Below, in pieces: positions 23,543 through 33,747 of a DNA stretch of 64,000 nt (its first letter is position 1; every line of letters starts with the position of its first letter). The DNA is from an uncultured Bacteroidota bacterium (GTDB lineage: Bacteria > Bacteroidota > Bacteroidia > Chitinophagales > Chitinophagaceae). Below the pieces are notes generated by a model, which searched no databases, had not been told where the DNA came from, and saw only the letters and a program-made list of their open reading frames with translations. The position numbers and the translations under genes are program-made. Location: positions 1 through 64,000 of the forward strand of contig CAIVEH010000039.1 of the NCBI GenBank assembly GCA_903904855.1, written 5' to 3'.

Positions 23543-25666
23543 TTATTTGCCGGGATACGGGTCTAAAGGCTTGTTGTCCAGAAACCGGCCTTCGTAAATC
23601 TTCTTTCCGGTTATATCATAACAAGTGCCTTTCCCGCTTCTCAGGCCATCTTTCCAATTGCCTTTATAAACCTCGCACAGCGGGCAGTTTTCTATCTCAT
23701 ATTTATCCTTATCTTTTATTTCATAAACGCCGTAACCATTTTCTTTATCCTCCTTCCATTCCCCATCATAAATATCACCATAGGGATTAATAAAAACGCC
23801 ATGCCCCCACTTCTTACCGTCTTCCCACCCACCTGTATATTTTGATCCGGTTATATAGGTAAAAGTCCCCTCACCCCATTGTTTATAATCCTTCCAGTTG
23901 CCATCATATTTACTTCCATCAGCCTGGTAATATACCCCATGACCGCTACACACATTTTTTTCCCAATGCCCAACATATTTATCGCCGGTAGCTGATTTAT
24001 AAGTTCCCTCGCCCTCATGCATGCCATCTTTCCAGTCGCCTTCATAAGTATCGCCGTTCGGCCATGTTCTGGTGCCCTTGCCGTTGGCATTATCATTATC
24101 AAAATTGCCGGTATAGGTACCATCACCGGGGATGGTAACAGTTCCCTGTCCTGACTTCATATTATCCTTCCAACCGCCAGTGTAAGTAAGCCCGTCATTT
24201 AAATAGATTGTTCCCTGCCCGTTGGGCAAATCGTCTTTCCATTCGCCTGTATATTTAGTGCCGTCGGCCCATATCTCGGTACCCTTGCCATTAAAGTTGC
24301 CATCCTCGAAATGGCCGGTGTATTTATCGCCGTTCTTCCATACAAAAACCCCTTCTCCGCTTTGCTCATCATCTTTCCAGTCGCCCTCGTATTTATTGCC
24401 GTTTTTCCAGTATTTAATCCCTTTACCATTAAAGTTGCCATCCTCGAAATGGCCGGTATATTTATCGCCGTTCTTCGAGGTGAATGTGCCTTCACCCGAT
24501 TTCATATCATCCTTCCAGTTACCTTCATATTTGTTGCCATCACTATAGAAATAAGTACCTTTTCCGTTGAAATTGCCATTTTCAAAATGACCGGTATATT
24601 TATTGCCATTCTTCCAGGTAAACGTGCCTTCTCCCCATTTCTTATCATCTTTCCAGTTGCCTGTGTATTTGCTGCCATCATCATAAAAATATGTGCCATT
24701 CCCGTTGAAGTTGCCATTTTTAAAATGGCCGGTGTATTTATTGCCATCACTCCAGCTGATGGTGCCTTCACCCGATAGAAGATCGTCTTTCCACTCTCCG
24801 GTATACTTAGTGCCACTGGCAGAAATTTTATATCCCTTGCCATTGAATTTGCCATACTCGAAATGCCCCGTATATAAAGTGCCATCGGTTGCATGGTAAG
24901 TTACTTCAACGGGTGGCGCCCCGTCTTTCCAGCTTCCCGTATACCAATCTCCGTTTGCCAGGTATAAGGTGCCGTTGCCGTTAGCAGCACCGTTTTTTGT
25001 ATGCCCAATATATTTATCACCGTTTTTATAGGGTATTACATCTATATCAGGGACTTTTATGTTTGAGAATTTTGATGAGAATTTATCAGATGGATGCCGT
25101 GTATCATATTGCGCAATGAATTCCTTTATATCATCATAGTGTACCCAGAAAAGGGTTTGCGGCAACGGGTAACTGGTGACATGCCTGCCTGCTTGTTCCC
25201 AAATATCCTGTTTCCTTACAGGACCTGCGCCAAGTATCTGAATGTTTTGTTTTCCTCCGGCTGCAGGAGTAGCACTACCTGCAAGGATATTAATAAATGG
25301 ATTAAGGAACAGGTCGAAATCGTATTTAATAATAATGACAATCTCCGTACCAGAGCTGTCTTCAATAGCGGCAAGGGTATCTTGTGGCGCCTTGTTATTT
25401 ACAATCACATTGAATTCCGGAACAGACAATTGCCGGGTAAAATTGGAATCGGCAAAGGCAGCAATCTTTCCTGATTTTACGTTGTTAACGATAGATACCA
25501 TCAGCGATGAGTCTTGCAAACGGGCATTGGCGCCGGGTTTCAGTCTGAGATCGATTATCGTGGAGAATATTTTAGTCTTTGGTTCAGTCTTGTTTTGGTT
25601 CTGGCCATAGAGGTGAAGGCTGGTTAGCAATAATACTGACAGCAGATATTTGCACAGGGAATTCAT
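23543..25666 (-). CDS. Secreted MORN-repeat protein
   Basis: 707 residues. A signal peptide (MNSLCKYLLSVLLLTSLHLY) precedes a beta-rich N-terminal domain of about 200 residues. From about residue 215 to the end there are some 20 MORN repeats (Y-x-G-x-W/F-K-D/N-G... about 23 residues each). They alternate between a YTGHFENGNFNGKGT form and a YEGNWKDDMKSGEGTF form, so the true unit of duplication is about 46 residues (about 138 bp). A CPLC pair lies near residue 660. MORN arrays act as scaffolds or lipid-binding surfaces; the partner here is unknown. Confidence 0.88.
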   Translation of the reverse strand: MNSLCKYLLSVLLLTSLHLYGQNQNKTEPKTKIFSTIIDLRLKPGANARLQDSSLMVSIVNNVKSGKIAAFADSNFTRQLSVPEFNVIVNNKAPQDTLAAIEDSSGTEIVIIIKYDFDLFLNPFINILAGSATPAAGGKQNIQILGAGPVRKQDIWEQAGRHVTSYPLPQTLFWVHYDDIKEFIAQYDTRHPSDKFSSKFSNIKVPDIDVIPYKNGDKYIGHTKNGAANGNGTLYLANGDWYTGSWKDGAPPVEVTYHATDGTLYTGHFEYGKFNGKGYKISASGTKYTGEWKDDLLSGEGTISWSDGNKYTGHFKNGNFNGNGTYFYDDGSKYTGNWKDDKKWGEGTFTWKNGNKYTGHFENGNFNGKGTYFYSDGNKYEGNWKDDMKSGEGTFTSKNGDKYTGHFEDGNFNGKGIKYWKNGNKYEGDWKDDEQSGEGVFVWKNGDKYTGHFEDGNFNGKGTEIWADGTKYTGEWKDDLPNGQGTIYLNDGLTYTGGWKDNMKSGQGTVTIPGDGTYTGNFDNDNANGKGTRTWPNGDTYEGDWKDGMHEGEGTYKSATGDKYVGHWEKNVCSGHGVYYQADGSKYDGNWKDYKQWGEGTFTYITGSKYTGGWEDGKKWGHGVFINPYGDIYDGEWKEDKENGYGVYEIKDKDKYEIENCPLCEVYKGNWKDGLRSGKGTCYDITGKKIYEGRFLDNKPLDPYPGK

Positions 25667-27274: not shown

Positions 27275-29566
27275 CTATACCCGCACCCCTATCACCAGCA
27301 CATCATCCACTTGCTCATTATCATGCTTCCAGTTTTCAAAATGGTTTTTGAGGTAGTTTTCCTGCTCCCTCATACTTTTATCCTGTATGGCCAACAGCAT
27401 TTCTTTAAATTTTGCAGTCATCATTTTTTTACCGTTCTGCCCGCCAAACTGGTCTGCATAGCCATCGGTGAAAATATAAAGAGTATCGTTTTTAGTCAGT
27501 TGTATTACATGATTGGTGAAGCTCCTGTCTTTAGCTGCCTGCAGGCCACCTATCGGGAATTTATCAGGCCGGTAAACCTCAATTTTATGATCCCTTATAA
27601 GCCATAGGGGGCGGTTGGCGCCGGCATACTGCAGTTCGTATTTATTCAGGTCAAAGGAGCAGATCGATATATCCATCCCGTCATTCGATTCGTTCTCGCC
27701 TTGCTTCAGAGCCTCTATTACAAGCCTGTTCAGCAGTGTAAGTATAAGCGCAGGCTCATCTATTCCCTTCTCGTTGATGATCTGGTTCAGCAGAGAGCTT
27801 CCTATCATACTCATAAATGCCCCCGATACACCATGGCCTGTGCAATCGCCCGCAATTATGAGTACCCGGCCATTCCTTTCGGCAAACGAATAGAAATCAC
27901 CACTTACAATATCCTTGGGCATAAACAGTATAAACGATTGCTCCAGGGCTTTATAAATCAGCTTTATATCCGGCAGTATTGCCGACTGTATACGTTGCGC
28001 ATAATTGATATTGTCGGTAATCGATTTATTCTTGATCTCAATTTCCTTCTTGCTTATTTCCAGTTCCTCCTTTTGCCTTATGATGTCCCGCGTTCTTTCC
28101 TCCACCTTATTTTCCAGTTCAGTATTCTGAGACTCCAGCAGCAGTTGTTTTTCCTTTTCCTTTTCCAGGTTTTCTTCCGAAAGCTGTCTGATAGAATGCA
28201 CCTGGTCAAGCAGCTTTTTCTGGTTCAGCCTGTTGGTTCTTCCCAATACTATTACAGCACTTAATGGGTAGAGATATATACCAATATCACTTAACTTTTC
28301 TATAAATACTGAATTTTTGAGGCCTGGTATCCACCTCGTAATCATTGGCAGCAAAATGGATATAAACAATGCAAATGAACAGACAATAACTATAGTTTTG
28401 GCTTCCCATCTTTTCTGCCGGAAGCCTTTTATAAGGTAATATATTGACGAAGAAAACGAAATCGAAAACAATACAGTGAATATAATCAGTATCAGGACTG
28501 GTGCTGGCAGATTCTCAATGTTGCCTGTATTAATCAAACCTAAAAATTTAAAATTATAGAGTATCGCAGGATGGAAACAGACAGCTGCAATAATGAGACG
28601 GATAAACAGAGAAATTTTAGACTTGTTCTTATTTCTCAGCACTTTGGCCAGGAAAAACGACATAAACTCAAAACTGAATACCAGGCAGAAAAGATATATT
28701 ACAGTGGATAGAAACGTAGATTGGGTGTCACTCAGAAAAGTGACAGATGTAAACAAACAAAACAGGCTGAAGTACAGGTTCTCAGTCTTATCTCTGGAGA
28801 ATATAAATACAAGGATAAATACTATGCCAAAAGCAAGGTAATAAAAACCTAGTGAATAGTTGTCATATTCATTGGTCAGAGATTCCTCATTTAGTTTTTC
28901 CGCAACTGCCAGTTCCCTGAGTTTAAATTTCAATGACATCAGGTGTAAACTTTGATCTGGAACAAACGTTATAATAACTTGTTCAGTACTGTCAATTAGA
29001 GGCAGGTTTGCAAATCCCTTTAATTCCTTTTTACTCAGCTTCTTATCCGCCGAATGATTAAACAATCCGGTACTTAAAATGCTATTCCCGTTACAATTGA
29101 TATCAACGGAGCCGTTAATTTTATAGCTAAGTGCTATGGTCTTATTTCTAAGTTTCGGTCCAAGCCATAACCTGGCAACCATAATTACTGTATCTATGTT
29201 TACCAGATGCAGGGTGTCTGGTTTCCTGGTTTCCAATTTAATACTTTGCCCATTTTTCTTCACTAAACTGACCGACCAGGTGAACCTATCAAATGGGTCC
29301 ACAAAACTCATCGATTGCTCTAACTCCTTCGAAAAATTTGTGGTGTCAATAGGTGTATATTTATTGATTATCGCTTTTGCCGAATCCAGTTTGGCCTCTT
29401 GTTCTAAAAAACTGCTTAAGGTAAGCAGTGTATCTTGTTTTGGAATTTGTGCCTTTGCCTGTTCCGGTGTTGTCAGTACTATAAATAAAAAGGGTATGGC
29501 TGCCAACAAACTATAAATCCGTTTGAGCTGCTGTAGCTTATCAGTAAAATACCTGTATACTCTCAT
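27275..29566 (-). CDS. Membrane-bound SpoIIE-type PP2C phosphatase (SiaA-like)
   Basis: 763 residues. The order is: a signal peptide (about 1-40); a periplasmic sensor of the 7TMR-DISM type (about 45-235); six or seven membrane helices (about 240-440); a coiled coil rich in E/K/Q (about 445-525) ending in NINYAQRIQSAILP; and a PP2C/SpoIIE phosphatase (about 530-763). Metal-site motifs are SGDFYSF, GDCTGHGVSGAFMS and FTDGYADQFGG. It is divergent from siaB-siaC, so it most likely dephosphorylates SiaC in response to an envelope signal. Confidence 0.9.
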   Translation of the reverse strand: MRVYRYFTDKLQQLKRIYSLLAAIPFLFIVLTTPEQAKAQIPKQDTLLTLSSFLEQEAKLDSAKAIINKYTPIDTTNFSKELEQSMSFVDPFDRFTWSVSLVKKNGQSIKLETRKPDTLHLVNIDTVIMVARLWLGPKLRNKTIALSYKINGSVDINCNGNSILSTGLFNHSADKKLSKKELKGFANLPLIDSTEQVIITFVPDQSLHLMSLKFKLRELAVAEKLNEESLTNEYDNYSLGFYYLAFGIVFILVFIFSRDKTENLYFSLFCLFTSVTFLSDTQSTFLSTVIYLFCLVFSFEFMSFFLAKVLRNKNKSKISLFIRLIIAAVCFHPAILYNFKFLGLINTGNIENLPAPVLILIIFTVLFSISFSSSIYYLIKGFRQKRWEAKTIVIVCSFALFISILLPMITRWIPGLKNSVFIEKLSDIGIYLYPLSAVIVLGRTNRLNQKKLLDQVHSIRQLSEENLEKEKEKQLLLESQNTELENKVEERTRDIIRQKEELEISKKEIEIKNKSITDNINYAQRIQSAILPDIKLIYKALEQSFILFMPKDIVSGDFYSFAERNGRVLIIAGDCTGHGVSGAFMSMIGSSLLNQIINEKGIDEPALILTLLNRLVIEALKQGENESNDGMDISICSFDLNKYELQYAGANRPLWLIRDHKIEVYRPDKFPIGGLQAAKDRSFTNHVIQLTKNDTLYIFTDGYADQFGGQNGKKMMTAKFKEMLLAIQDKSMREQENYLKNHFENWKHDNEQVDDVLVIGVRV

Positions 29567-29736
29567 TTATTAACTTTTCAGGTTTAAGACTAAACATCCA
29601 CTTGGGATATTCATTACTTGATAAAGTGAAAGTATAAATTGTATGGCTCATTTCTTATTTTTTCTGAAATAACTTTCTGCGAAACAACTTTTCAGTAACC
29701 ATAATCTGATTTTTATGAAAGGATGAAATTAATCTT

Positions 29737-29744
29737 TACTTTTG
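29737..29744 (+). promoter_or_regulatory. -7 promoter box of siaB-siaC
   Basis: TACTTTTG matches TAnnTTTG and lies 22 bases before the siaB ATG. No clear -33 TTTG was found at the right distance. The 200-base divergent gap also serves the phosphatase gene on the other strand. Confidence 0.5.
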
Positions 29745-29766
29745 AGTGTAAACAGCAATTATCCTG

Positions 29767-30324
29767 ATGGCACAATTGGATCTCTACAATATCTACCTGA
29801 ATATGGAGAAGGAGGATATCATTTTGTCCTTTAAAGGAGATATTACCAAGGAACTGTTGTCGTCTGTTTACCAAATAGTTGAGGCAAGAATAGAAAGCGG
29901 GAATGAAGACCCGAAAAAAAAGAAGAAGTTTTTTCATGTACTTGTAGAATGCCTTCAGAATATGTACAACCATATGGAGACAATGCAGGGAATGGATAAT
30001 GATTTACCTGAAAATAGCGGCAGTGGTATTTTTATGATTGGCAAGGGCGAAGAGGGTGGCTACCGTATCATTACCGGAAACTTTATACTCACTGAAAATG
30101 CCGGTATCCTTAAAGAAAGAATTGATCAGATCAATGCAATGAACCCTCAGGAACTGAAAGCTTATTACCTTGAAAAACTGGGCTCAACCGAACTATCTGA
30201 TAAGGGCGGTGCTGGTTTAGGCATTATAGATATAGCCCGCAAATCGGGCAATAAGATAGAATATGATTTTCAATACCCATCATCAAAATATTCCTTTTTT
30301 ACCTTATCGGCTACCATAAACTAA
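29767..30324 (+). CDS. siaB: SiaB-family protein kinase
   Basis: 185 residues, full length. It has a GHKL-like fold: an N-box-like helix HVLVECLQNMYNH (near residue 60) and a glycine loop DKGGAGLGIIDIARKSG (near residue 150). In Pseudomonas, SiaB phosphorylates SiaC and the PP2C phosphatase SiaA reverses this. Here siaC follows after 17 bases and a SpoIIE phosphatase gene diverges from siaB, which supports the same chemistry. Confidence 0.9.
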   Translation: MAQLDLYNIYLNMEKEDIILSFKGDITKELLSSVYQIVEARIESGNEDPKKKKKFFHVLVECLQNMYNHMETMQGMDNDLPENSGSGIFMIGKGEEGGYRIITGNFILTENAGILKERIDQINAMNPQELKAYYLEKLGSTELSDKGGAGLGIIDIARKSGNKIEYDFQYPSSKYSFFTLSATIN

Positions 30325-30341
30325 ATAAAAACATTAGAAGG

Positions 30342-30719
30342 ATGGATAACCTTATTCTTGAAGGCAGCAATAAAACCCCGGCAATCAACTTCAAAGCAGA
30401 TACCGGAATTCTTGAAATTGCAGGAAAATCGATACCAGAAAATTCATTTGGTTTTTATCAACCCTTATTCGCCTGGATTGATAATTATGTTCTTAATCCT
30501 GTGGCTAAAACTGAAATAAAGATTTCGCTTGAATACTTTAACACCAGCTCATCCAAATGCCTGCTTGATATTTTACGGAAGCTGGAAGCACTTAAAAAGT
30601 CGGAAAAAAGCGATGTAAGTGTTTCCTGGTATTATGAATCCGATGATGAAGATATGATGGAGGCAGGCCAGGATTACGATTCGCTTGTAGATCTTACTTT
30701 TAATATCATTAAGATCTGA
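30342..30719 (+). CDS. siaC: SiaC-family regulatory phosphoprotein (DUF1987)
   Basis: 125 residues. The family motif ISLEYFNTSSSKCLLDIL is present, with Thr68 in NTSSSK. Thr68 is also, as I recall, the residue phosphorylated by SiaB in Pseudomonas aeruginosa SiaC. There SiaC binds and activates the diguanylate cyclase SiaD; no GGDEF protein is present here. The gene converges with the ABC transporter gene, and the two reading frames overlap by 11 bases. Confidence 0.92.
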   Translation: MDNLILEGSNKTPAINFKADTGILEIAGKSIPENSFGFYQPLFAWIDNYVLNPVAKTEIKISLEYFNTSSSKCLLDILRKLEALKKSEKSDVSVSWYYESDDEDMMEAGQDYDSLVDLTFNIIKI

Positions 30720-33700
30720 TTTTCTTCTCCAGTAGTTTCCTGAGCAGATCAAAATACAATACCAGGTATAGAACCCCTGTCATAAGCCAGATGATTATCA
30801 GGTTGTACCAGAGCGTTTCCACAGGCATTCCGAAAAAGGATTTTGAGTGGGTATAAAATGGAGATGTAATCTTTCCGTCGTTTTCAGCTCCGATGAAAAC
30901 CGGTTCGTACTTCCGGATAATATGGTTTCCGGAAATAACTGTTTTCTCCCTTACAGCAGTGTTCAAAACCATTTCTTCCAGCTGCTCATTACAATACCTG
31001 TTCTTGAATTCCCTGGCGCCTTCTGTACTTAATCTTTCATTCAACTTCAGTAGCAAGTCTTGCTTTTTAGTAAGCACTTCATTCTTCTTTCTGATAAAAT
31101 GCCTTTCGATACTGTCGGTATTTTTTTTGCAGGCATCAATAAAGGGTACCATCGCGATATTTATTTCAGGTAGTGGGGTATACGCTATATTTTCATGCGG
31201 GTTAGATTCTTTTATTAAACTGATTTCGTCTTTTAATAGCAGTGCCTCTGCTATCAAAGAATCTGTTGAACTTGACTTGGCAGTTGTCAAATTTTCGAGA
31301 AGAGAGGTTTGTTTCTGCATCTGTTCAGCCCAGTAGTCAGCAATGTAGCCCGCATTACTTATCTGCCTGTCTAATTCAAAAAAGGGTGCTTCATATTGAT
31401 TATTCTTAAACCGGTCTACAGCCAATGATTCGAATGCCCAGCGCGATGCCATAACATTACCAATAAGCGGTACTTTGCTTTGATTGCTCAGCTCTGGGCA
31501 CAGGTCTTCAAACTTTACCATCACTCCGCTCAGCATTATCTGGGGTATTACCAGGAAGGGTATCAGAATATATACTGCTACCCGGGTTTTTAAACCGGAA
31601 GAAATATTAAGCCCCAACAGGTTGGCAAAGCACGACACCGAAAAAAGCACCAGCCAGTGATTAAACAACAACCCACTGAAACCCAGGATGGAATTACCAA
31701 TAAGTAAAAACAGGAGGCTCTGCACAGCTGAAACAAGGAATAAAAATGCAATCTTTGAAAACAGATAACTGTTCCGGCTTAGCCTGAGGAAGGACTCTCT
31801 TTTCAGTATTTTTTTATCCTGTATTATTTCATCTGCACTTACTATGAGTCCCAGAAATAGCGAGACAATGGTACTGATAAACAGGTAAACAGGTATGTTG
31901 GGGTTCAATCCAAAATGATAGGGTTTGCCTACACCATGCGACCGTAGGGCAAACCCGAGTATCAATGCCAATACTGGTCCTTCGAATAAAGTAATAGCCA
32001 GATATTGCTTGTTATTCAGTTTTGCCAAAAAATTTCGCTGGAAATAAACCTTTAACTGACGGAAAGTATTAGCTACTTTAACATCTCTCAGCGCCTGTTT
32101 GTTACACTCAACATTGTTGCTGGCAGAATCTTGATTTATAAAGTTAGCATTGTACAGTTTATACCACTCTTCCGGATACATCTTCCTGTGGCTAGTGGCT
32201 TTGCCATATTCATCTACTGTCTTTGCTTCAATAATCCGGAACAACTCCTCTGGGTTTATGTTGCCACATTCAGGGCACTCACAATTCTCAAAATCCACAA
32301 AATGCATCTGCTGTTTAAAATATCTCACCGAATCAACCGGATTACCAAAATAAACCGGAAAACCACCAGTATCCAGGATCAACATCTGGTCGAACAACTT
32401 GAAAATTTCAGACGAAGGCTGATGAATGACCACAAATATCAGCTTACCTGTCATGGTCAGTTGTTTCAGCAGGTCCATTACATTCTCCGCATCATTGGAT
32501 GACAAGCCTGAGGTGGGCTCATCAACGAACAATATTTCCGGTTCGCGGATAAGTTCAAGCGCTATATTTAATCTTTTGCGCTGGCCACCACTTATAAACT
32601 TATTTAAAGGGTCTCCTACCTGAAGGTCTTTGATATCATATAATCCAAGCGACTGCAGGCAATAGTTTACCTTTTCAAGAATCTCATTATCATTCAGACT
32701 GCCAAAATATAGTTTCGAACTGAAAAAAAGATTTTGAAAAACACTCAATTCTTCCACCAGCAAGTCATCCTGCGGAATGTTGCCGGTTAAACCATGTAAG
32801 CCATGTTCGTGAAGCTCTTTGCCATTAATCAATATACGGCCAGAAGAGGGTTTCACACTTCCGTTCAGCAGGTTAAGCATAGTTGTTTTCCCTGCCCCGC
32901 TGTTTCCCATTATGCCTACAAGGTTTTTAGAGGTAGTAGAGAAACTAAGTTCATGCAGCCCGATCTTATTTTTACTGAACGAATAACAAAGCCGATCAAC
33001 TTCAAAAGCCAGGTTATGGTTTACATTAAGTTCTTCGTATTTATGGATAATGTCGTTGTAATAGAGAGCATTCATTTTCGATCCCCTTATTACCGAACCC
33101 TGCTCGAAAACCTGCACTACACCAGGGGCGATCAACCTTCCATCAAGCAATAACTGGTCCTGACCCAGGTATTTAAACAAAAATATCAGCGGGTTGCTTA
33201 TCCTCAGGAACACTATGTTTCCAGAAAGATTTTCTTTCTTTATTTGTTTAAATGCTGCCTCACTTTCTTCTGTTTTGCTGATAATCAGAAATTCACCATC
33301 CTTACCGTGATAAACATCTGCTTCATTTACCAGCTTAAAACTGTTTTCAAAATCAGCCTTGCTGATTGTAAATGTATCGGCAACCGTTTGTATAAATTCC
33401 AGGTGCTGCTCTGTAAGTGTAGATATTGCTGAATGCAAAAATTCGAGCAACCTTATCAAAACAATTACTTTCTGTTTTTGCTCCAGTTCCCTATTGATAT
33501 CCGTACATATCCTTAATACCTTAACGGAATTGACAGAAGTTCTTTTTCTTATTTTGCCCTCAACAATCCTATCCTTTAAACTTTCGAGGAAGTCATCATA
33601 AACTTTGAGGTATACGGGTACTAGGTTGTTACCTAATTGTCTTCTGAGGAAACGTTCAACAACTTCACGCCCCCGTAAACCAACTTCATCAGTGTTGGCT

Positions 33701-33747
33701 ATGATAGCGAATAATTGCATTAGTGCCCTTAATATCTTATCACTCAT
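30709..33747 (-). CDS. ABCG-like half transporter with N-terminal regulatory region
   Basis: 1012 residues. Residues 1-250 have no transporter motif and begin with a TerB-like helical pattern (LMQLFAIIANTDEVGLRGRE). The ATPase has Walker A GNSGAGKT (near residue 285), signature SGGQRKR and Walker B ILFVDEPTSGL, typical of ABCG/Wht proteins. A CECPECGN cluster follows near residue 500. The permease has about six helices (about 600-760 and a last one near 985). A large soluble, coiled-coil-like insert (about 790-960) separates the last helix from the rest. Substrate unknown. It follows a lipoprotein gene by 45 bases. Confidence 0.9.
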   Translation of the reverse strand: MSDKILRALMQLFAIIANTDEVGLRGREVVERFLRRQLGNNLVPVYLKVYDDFLESLKDRIVEGKIRKRTSVNSVKVLRICTDINRELEQKQKVIVLIRLLEFLHSAISTLTEQHLEFIQTVADTFTISKADFENSFKLVNEADVYHGKDGEFLIISKTEESEAAFKQIKKENLSGNIVFLRISNPLIFLFKYLGQDQLLLDGRLIAPGVVQVFEQGSVIRGSKMNALYYNDIIHKYEELNVNHNLAFEVDRLCYSFSKNKIGLHELSFSTTSKNLVGIMGNSGAGKTTMLNLLNGSVKPSSGRILINGKELHEHGLHGLTGNIPQDDLLVEELSVFQNLFFSSKLYFGSLNDNEILEKVNYCLQSLGLYDIKDLQVGDPLNKFISGGQRKRLNIALELIREPEILFVDEPTSGLSSNDAENVMDLLKQLTMTGKLIFVVIHQPSSEIFKLFDQMLILDTGGFPVYFGNPVDSVRYFKQQMHFVDFENCECPECGNINPEELFRIIEAKTVDEYGKATSHRKMYPEEWYKLYNANFINQDSASNNVECNKQALRDVKVANTFRQLKVYFQRNFLAKLNNKQYLAITLFEGPVLALILGFALRSHGVGKPYHFGLNPNIPVYLFISTIVSLFLGLIVSADEIIQDKKILKRESFLRLSRNSYLFSKIAFLFLVSAVQSLLFLLIGNSILGFSGLLFNHWLVLFSVSCFANLLGLNISSGLKTRVAVYILIPFLVIPQIMLSGVMVKFEDLCPELSNQSKVPLIGNVMASRWAFESLAVDRFKNNQYEAPFFELDRQISNAGYIADYWAEQMQKQTSLLENLTTAKSSSTDSLIAEALLLKDEISLIKESNPHENIAYTPLPEINIAMVPFIDACKKNTDSIERHFIRKKNEVLTKKQDLLLKLNERLSTEGAREFKNRYCNEQLEEMVLNTAVREKTVISGNHIIRKYEPVFIGAENDGKITSPFYTHSKSFFGMPVETLWYNLIIIWLMTGVLYLVLYFDLLRKLLEKKIRS

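Follow-up and report, generated by a model that had tools for sequence, protein, structure and literature searches.

A Sia-type partner switch linked to an ABC exporter with a TerB/FHA-like head in Bacteroidota

Partner switches act on sigma-factor regulators and cyclases. In Pseudomonas aeruginosa the switch built around SiaC acts on the cyclase SiaD, as described in the accessible parts of PMC7647112 and PMC8457831. SiaD is a diguanylate cyclase that serves biofilm signaling, and it is dephosphorylated SiaC that binds and activates it. What such a switch controls when a GGDEF enzyme is missing is the question raised by a locus in the 64,000-nucleotide stretch analyzed here (contig CAIVEH010000039.1 of an uncultured member of the Chitinophagaceae, phylum Bacteroidota; hereafter the window). 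This locus encodes a SiaA-type phosphatase, SiaB and SiaC together with an ABC transporter, and a previous sequence-only reading had proposed that its SiaC controls export rather than cyclic di-GMP. We analyzed gene content, co-occurrence, adjacency, the type of SiaC, one gene fusion and the predicted fold of the transporter's cytoplasmic head, all of which could be established directly. As the best explanation of these observations, we consider it likely that SiaC gates the ABC exporter, which would thereby be the output of this Sia-type switch.

The three switch proteins were largely as previously described. The phosphatase contains a SpoIIE/PP2C domain at residues 565-763 (Pfam E value 2.3e-20) with four metal-site motifs (GDF556, GDC573, TDG700 and DDV754), corresponding to the PP2C phosphatase with metal-binding aspartates of SiaABCD, and the NCBIfam SiaA equivalog model matched residues 479-763 below its cut-off. 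The 7TMR-DISM sensor assigned to this protein in the sequence-only reading found weaker support than the phosphatase domain, as PF07695 gave an E value of 0.97, under the Pfam cut-off, and the resemblance lies in the layout alone, with seven hydrophobic segments following the signal peptide at a permissive cut and five at a stricter one. SiaB matched PF19788 (E value 3.7e-40) as well as the NCBIfam SiaB-family kinase model and carries glutamate at residue 61, the predicted catalytic position of P. aeruginosa SiaB in the available text of PMC7647112. SiaC matched PF09345 (E value 1.7e-42) and retains threonine exactly at position 68 within N67-T68-S69, the positions named for the P. aeruginosa protein in the accessible parts of PMC7647112 and PMC8457831. 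The domains ahead of PP2C varied between loci and included a membrane part (window), HAMP-GAF-PAS (L124) and a cyclic nucleotide-binding domain (L130), indicating that the input differs while the switch and the exporter stay. The latter protein (L130:4515-5777) is a SiaA-type phosphatase encoded beside siaBC and the ABC gene. Other arrangements of the switch were also encountered, including a 503-amino acid open reading frame (ORF; L251:1916-3424) whose single chain joins two SiaB kinase domains to one SiaC domain, as well as SiaA-SiaB-SiaC (L259, Persicobacter psychrovividus pPP7) and SiaB-SiaC (L258, Bernardetia plasmid) on plasmids of Bacteroidota without an adjoining ABC gene.

The remaining gene encodes the transporter. 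Pfam assigned ABC_tran (PF00005) and ABC2_membrane (PF01061) domains, the ATPase motifs are intact (Walker A, residue 281; signature, 386; Walker B, 405), and matches were obtained to TIGR00955 (E value 1.4e-67, under the model's cut-off) and to the human ABCG2 chain (E value 3.4e-40). The ATPase precedes the membrane domain in one chain, which is the ABCG-type layout. Hydrophobic segments were located between residues 583 and 743 and at 983-1001, and these positions delimit an insert of ~240 residues (~744-982) between the fifth and sixth segments that is presumably extracytoplasmic. Profiles, motifs and hydropathy thus confirmed an ABCG-like transporter of 1012 residues with an N-terminal region and a long insert, just as ORF coordinates bore out the placement of the four genes and the 11-base overlap with which the ABC gene converges on siaC. 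The previously noted lack of a GGDEF gene at the locus extends to the whole source genome (5.6 Mb, 97% complete), in which no GGDEF domain was matched at an E value of 0.001. This genome contains one SiaC and a single full-length ABC protein of this kind, all remaining matches being to parts around the ATPase domain.

To what extent the transporter follows the switch was analyzed in three overlapping samples of 60 relatives, 376 genomes of the order and 395 genomes of the phylum. Among the relatives, ABC matches at E<=1e-40 and SiaC were found in the identical seven genomes, and within the window's genus 3 of the 35 genomes have either one. In the order, the profile of the ABC head matched 11 of 376 genomes and SiaC 12, with all 11 common to both; counted by genera, seven ABC genera were among the eight SiaC genera of 160. 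The corresponding hypergeometric probabilities of 2.6e-20 for genomes and 1.7e-11 for genera are optimistic, as kinship was left uncorrected. In the phylum, SiaC was present in 22 of 395 genomes and ABC matches at E<=1e-40 in 13, six of them full-length, and five of these six have SiaC; only two ABC candidates were scored per genome in this sample, which makes absence of the ABC gene less meaningful here.

Linkage between the ABC gene and the switch genes was common but not universal. Of the 17 distinct sampled genomes that have both, 13 carry the ABC gene immediately next to siaC or siaB, in convergent (nine), co-directional (three) or divergent (one) orientation; in the other four (G003, G044, G524 and G539) it lies elsewhere or on another contig. 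We selected a further 80 named loci, the best of 572, by the ABC protein alone. Among these, 22 exhibited siaC or siaB as a direct neighbor (21 convergent, one co-directional) and a further five had siaC further off in the flank. The remaining loci were represented by 50 genomes, since L207, L246 and L250 come from genomes already represented by other loci of the list and had been dropped. SiaC was found elsewhere in 49 of these 50 genomes, whereas 22 of the 395 phylum genomes have it. The expectation that the ABC gene stays next to siaBC in relatives was therefore borne out in many genomes but not in all of them. The many ABC loci that are unlinked to siaC would also suit an alternative in which SiaC acts on another, unlinked effector, while the ABC transporter and the lipoprotein encoded next to it (see below) travel with SiaBC through a shared lifestyle. 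The same can be said of ABC genomes with up to 21 SiaC matches, which presumably serve other partners. Genomes with a single SiaC nevertheless keep the ABC gene, and adjacency occurs in three orientations, both of which argue against an unlinked effector. Together with the evidence described in the following paragraphs, this leads us to regard it as unlikely.

The partners of SiaC in other classes of the phylum provided the comparison for the window's class. Across 36 searched genomes, GGDEF domains were detected in 16 of the 17 from other classes and in none of the 19 from the window's class. In the other classes, the genes beside siaC or one gene away encode GGDEF proteins (L139, L140, L149 and L164), a histidine kinase (L137), a class III adenylate/guanylate cyclase (L154), PP2C proteins (L144 and L148) and small ORFs (L142, L143, L147 and L162). 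These otherwise unlike neighbors have a 19-residue stretch in common, LLxQxxKxTRI[GS]DxxQxKL, which fits the residues of SiaD that contact SiaC (K77, V78, R80, I81, S82, D83 and Q86, as listed in the accessible part of PMC8457831). A profile of this docking helix matched 21 of the 26 fetched SiaC loci of other classes and 16 of the 17 genomes (none in G167) with scores of at least 20.9, separated by a gap from all other scores in the window and 257 loci, which reached 13.9 at most. The profile was built in part from loci in which the helix was then counted; in leave-one-group-out runs, between 0 and 8 of the 429,668 background windows reached the scores of the left-out helices. The small ORFs with this helix have frames of 85-101 amino acids and may be bare adaptors.

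Among the loci fetched from the window's class, none contained the docking helix, and in the later-fetched loci of distant SiaCs of the type described below the best score was 14.4, high scores being confined to the profile's own Azospirillum genes. To judge from these loci, the usual partner does not occur beside siaC in the window's class, where the ABC gene is often found. The ABC gene is as near to siaC as the GGDEF, cyclase, kinase and PP2C genes of the other classes, but does not carry their docking helix, a difference that favors an unlinked effector. On the other hand, another SiaD-like protein, the partner that could have invalidated the sequence-only reading, did not emerge from the GGDEF search or from the fetched loci of this class, to which the scan for the helix was confined, and this speaks for the transporter as the output.

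SiaC itself differs between the two settings. We compared 35 SiaCs encoded adjacent to the ABC gene with 20 encoded near docking-helix genes and obtained a signature of nine positions in window SiaC numbering (T57, E64, D101, D104, M105, A108, D111, Y112 and I/L115), several of which fall, by numbering, in the SiaC helix that contacts SiaD. The ABC-adjacent SiaCs matched a mean of 8.5 of the nine positions (34 of 35 scored at least 7, one scored 4), compared to 1.9 with a highest score of 4 for SiaCs near docking-helix genes, while N67-T68 was kept in 35 of 35. The window's SiaC matched all nine. In the four genomes with unlinked ABC genes, whose SiaCs had no part in defining the signature, the scores were 8 (G003), 9 (G524), 8 (G539) and 9 (G044, best of three scored), whereas the SiaC of G485, the only SiaC genome of the class without an ABC match, scored 3. 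The distant SiaCs of 48 of the 49 SiaC-positive genomes selected by their ABC protein (G835 was left out) followed the same pattern with 47 scoring at least 7; where a genome had several SiaCs, the one with the best Pfam score was taken. For two of the 48 (L295 and L297) a second ABC copy was found in the fetched stretch. By sequence, ABC-linked SiaCs are therefore a recognizable type that follows the ABC protein, which argues against an effector located elsewhere. Long TerB-like/FHA-like/ABC proteins of 1193-1309 amino acids in three genomes of other classes (G333, G341 and G399) were not counted as this ABC protein, since they were core-only matches and the SiaCs scored in these genomes reached at most 4 of 9. 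A single origin of the ABC type was not supported by a tree of SiaC (126 columns, 130 rows), in which this type requires five changes; 55 of the 126 inner branches of the tree were left open. With 16 to 21 SiaC matches each, four ABC genomes (G814, G823, G826 and G830) may run many such switches in parallel.

The candidate receptor for SiaC is the cytoplasmic head of the transporter. Residues 1-240 were modeled with a predicted local distance difference test (pLDDT) score of 88 and a predicted template modeling score of 0.85 (81 sequences). The helical part aligned with the TerB-type structure 2h5n (Z score 8.3) and with 2ou3, which is annotated as tellurite resistance (Z score 7.5). PF05099 (TerB) did not match the window's own head, and the TerB assignment is backed by the family, in which 76 of the 81 heads of the alignment matched at E<=0.1 (best 7.1e-10); by profile and predicted fold, the head family is TerB-like. 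For residues 150-240, most of the listed structural matches were FHA domains, including FHA-2 of Mycobacterium tuberculosis Rv1747, with Z scores of 6.3-7.7, which below 8 are only suggestive and may reflect a common arrangement; the best Foldseek match had an E value of 3.1e-3 and a probability of 1.00. At one locus (L173, from ~8001), the TerB/FHA-like head also occurs as a separate protein of 243 amino acids, encoded directly ahead of a full-length ABC gene.

The possible FHA-like fold raises the question of which form of SiaC would be bound. If the phosphorylated form were the ligand, with phosphothreonine 68 read by the FHA-like domain, the exporter would still be the output, and FHA I of Rv1747 recognizes a phosphothreonine protein according to the available text of PMC5549992 and PMC3908365. 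In the window's FHA-like stretch the phosphothreonine signature of GR and SxxH was not visible by eye, in contrast to the FHA-ABC proteins of L080 and L081 from the same phylum, and we consider binding of the phosphorylated form quite improbable.

The densest conserved run of the head is its helix 4 (S74 to K93), which makes this helix a reasonable place to look for a SiaC contact. A SiaD-like docking helix at this position, with KVLKICTQIN set against K77 V78 x R80 I81 S82 D83 x x Q86, was considered and rejected. In a BLOSUM scan the helix-4 window ranked third within the window's own head and joint fourth to fifth in the consensus, 71% of 1152 background proteins contained a window scoring as high with the profile of the real helix, and helix 4 was the best-scoring window in only 21 of 102 heads. 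A looser pattern that matched 68 of the 102 heads was discounted, since it had been shaped after the ABC sequence was seen. Helix 4 deviates most in L076 and L204, which stem from genomes without a SiaC match, and in the second copies L073-L075. This decay was dropped as evidence because these homologues are also among the most diverged across the rest of the head (L076: 9/12 vs 16/38 elsewhere in the head, Fisher p 0.095).

A gene fusion brings SiaC and the head together. The genome of L245 (G833, Bacteroidetes bacterium RIFCSPLOWO2_12_FULL_35_15) encodes a 367-amino acid ORF (L252:3862-4962, minus strand) consisting of a stretch resembling the ABC head and a full SiaC domain, in the strand order PP2C, SiaB, SiaB, SiaC, fusion and ABC. 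Among 7594 frames of the 257 loci, the head profile matched this ORF with an E value of 1.2e-5, collinear over ~140 residues. The profile also matched 137 frames that contain an ABC core and two head-only frames (L173 as well as L024, where the locus ends), and next below the fusion came a frame of 77 residues (E value 0.046). Pfam recognized only SiaC in the fusion ORF. As judged from sequence, the fusion puts SiaC and a copy of the proposed receptor domain in one chain, an arrangement that again argues against an unlinked effector.

From these gene comparisons we infer that SiaC binds the head, that phosphorylation decides binding and that export changes with it. By homology, SiaA, the membrane sensor with the PP2C domain, would remove the phosphate from Thr68 of SiaC and SiaB would add it. 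SiaC of the ABC type would then bind, or stop binding, the TerB-like and degenerate FHA-like head and thereby set the activity of the exporter. By analogy with SiaD, unphosphorylated SiaC would be the binding form, and its effect on export could be either on or off. The two domains of the head are of the interaction-module type and the inputs of SiaA vary, so that a further fixed input would be conceivable and the transporter might instead act upstream as a sensor that reports flux or cargo to SiaA/SiaB via SiaC. In the characterized system the ligand of SiaC is the output, as far as described in PMC7647112 and PMC8457831, and the ATPase motifs are intact as in a working exporter, though this is compatible with sensing. 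An upstream transporter appears to us even less probable than recognition of phosphorylated SiaC.

Several observations weigh against an exporter gated by SiaC. G485 has SiaC without an ABC match (a genome of 85% completeness, with siaC on a 3,147-base contig), while G405 has a full-length ABC protein without a match to SiaC or SiaB. In the set chosen by the ABC protein, siaC was unseen in the fetched flank of 53 of the 80 loci, some of which lie on contigs that end, and G811 (locus L204), the sole exception among the 50 genomes, has the ABC gene and no SiaC match. The best SiaC of G829 (L305) scored 4 and is not of the ABC type. The signature and the co-occurrence are in part inherited together, and the choice of the best Pfam-scoring SiaC affects genomes with several. 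The fusion is a single case with a diverged head (hhalign probability 29.5%), and the canonical SiaC-docking helix is not in the ABC head, where the best candidate, helix 4, remained at background. Taken together, linkage, co-occurrence, the lack of GGDEF and the fusion support the proposal that SiaC controls export rather than c-di-GMP. Docking in the manner of SiaD found no support. For the more detailed version, that the switch gates the exporter directly and was re-wired in the window's class from docking-helix cyclases and kinases to a TerB/FHA-like receptor, with a matching change in SiaC and loss of phosphothreonine reading by the FHA-like domain, we lean toward acceptance with somewhat less confidence.

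A fifth gene, beyond the four described previously, follows the ABC gene and encodes a lipoprotein (Table 1). Its lipobox is LCSC, and Cys22 is invariant in 55 sequences. The lipoprotein gene was located within three genes of the ABC gene in 54 of the 80 named loci, as well as in the window and in 16 loci from the genome samples, and stays with the ABC gene where siaC is elsewhere (L112, L125, L127 and L133). The model of the protein (pLDDT 87) gave a best Foldseek E value of 0.21 and VIA-align Z scores of up to 7.5 with long-helix proteins, which were not informative as to fold, and no Pfam family held across its members. The lipoprotein probably works with the exporter as its partner through the large insert. 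An ORF of ~140 amino acids often lies between the lipoprotein and ABC genes (L174, L178, L184 and other ABC loci) and is absent in the window. Elsewhere in the window, positions 23543-25666 encode a 707-amino acid secreted-looking protein with repeats that by eye resemble MORN repeats.

Table 1. Coordinates of the genes and domains of the Sia/ABC locus in the window.
Feature	Position	Strand	Characteristics
SiaA-role phosphatase, 763 amino acids	27275..29566	-	Signal peptide, extracytoplasmic region, multi-pass membrane part, SpoIIE/PP2C domain
SiaB-family kinase, 185 amino acids	29767..30324	+	Glu61 in ECLQN; PF19788, NF038262
SiaC, 125 amino acids	30342..30719	+	Phosphosite Thr68; PF09345; ABC-type signature 9/9
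TerB/FHA-like/ABCG exporter, 1012 amino acids	30709..33747	-	Profiles, motifs, head model
ABC residues 1-147, TerB-like helical domain	33307..33747	-	Putative SiaC receptor
ABC residues 150-240, FHA-like beta domain	33028..33300	-	No visible GR / SxxH signature
ABC residues 744-982, long insert	30802..31518	-	Hydropathy; ABC2_membrane ends at 751
Lipoprotein, 290 amino acids	33793..34665	-	Lipobox ending at Cys22; predicted all-helical
Overlap of the convergent siaC and ABC genes, 11 bases	30709..30719		ORF coordinates

In terms of signaling, the closest known system is SiaABCD of P. aeruginosa (PMC7647112 and PMC8457831, accessible parts), with which the window shares the PP2C phosphatase, SiaB Glu61 and SiaC N67-T68-S69. 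In contrast, two features of SiaABCD, SiaD with its GGDEF domain and the SiaD-type docking helix, are missing, the partner gene encodes an ABC exporter, and SiaC carries the ABC-type residues, several of them in the SiaD-contacting helix. Since these two features are missing, we regard the window's system as Sia-like rather than as a member of SiaABCD. Its proposed output would represent a new class for a Sia switch. In layout, the closest match is Rv1747, an ABC transporter thought to be an exporter that has two FHA domains and is modulated by the kinase PknF, which is encoded in the same operon (PMC5549992 and PMC3908365, available text). Common to both are the ABC transporter and a tie to Ser/Thr phosphorylation, which in the window is putative. 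The window has a TerB-like domain and a domain that may have the FHA fold but shows no FHA signature, together with a SiaB/SiaC/PP2C switch. The FHA-ABC proteins of Bacteroidota (L080-L083) also combine an FHA-like start with an ABC core (33-41% identity over the matched core). They differ in their shorter frames of 735-845 amino acids, in the visible FHA signature (L080 and L081) and in the lack of a TerB-like start in the 60 residues examined. Among the matches listed in a search of the open-licence literature, no paper tied SiaC or DUF1987 to an ABC transporter or to Bacteroidota.

If the exporter is indeed gated by SiaC, it would represent a novel type of target for the Sia switch in many Bacteroidota. 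Export across the envelope could then be turned on and off post-translationally in bacteria that, in the searched genomes of this class, have no GGDEF domain. For testing, both the candidate receptor domain and the SiaC type are defined, and a naturally occurring fusion is at hand. The phylum itself represents a natural comparison within one SiaC family, in which several unlike enzymes of the other classes share one docking helix and the window's class has another candidate receptor.

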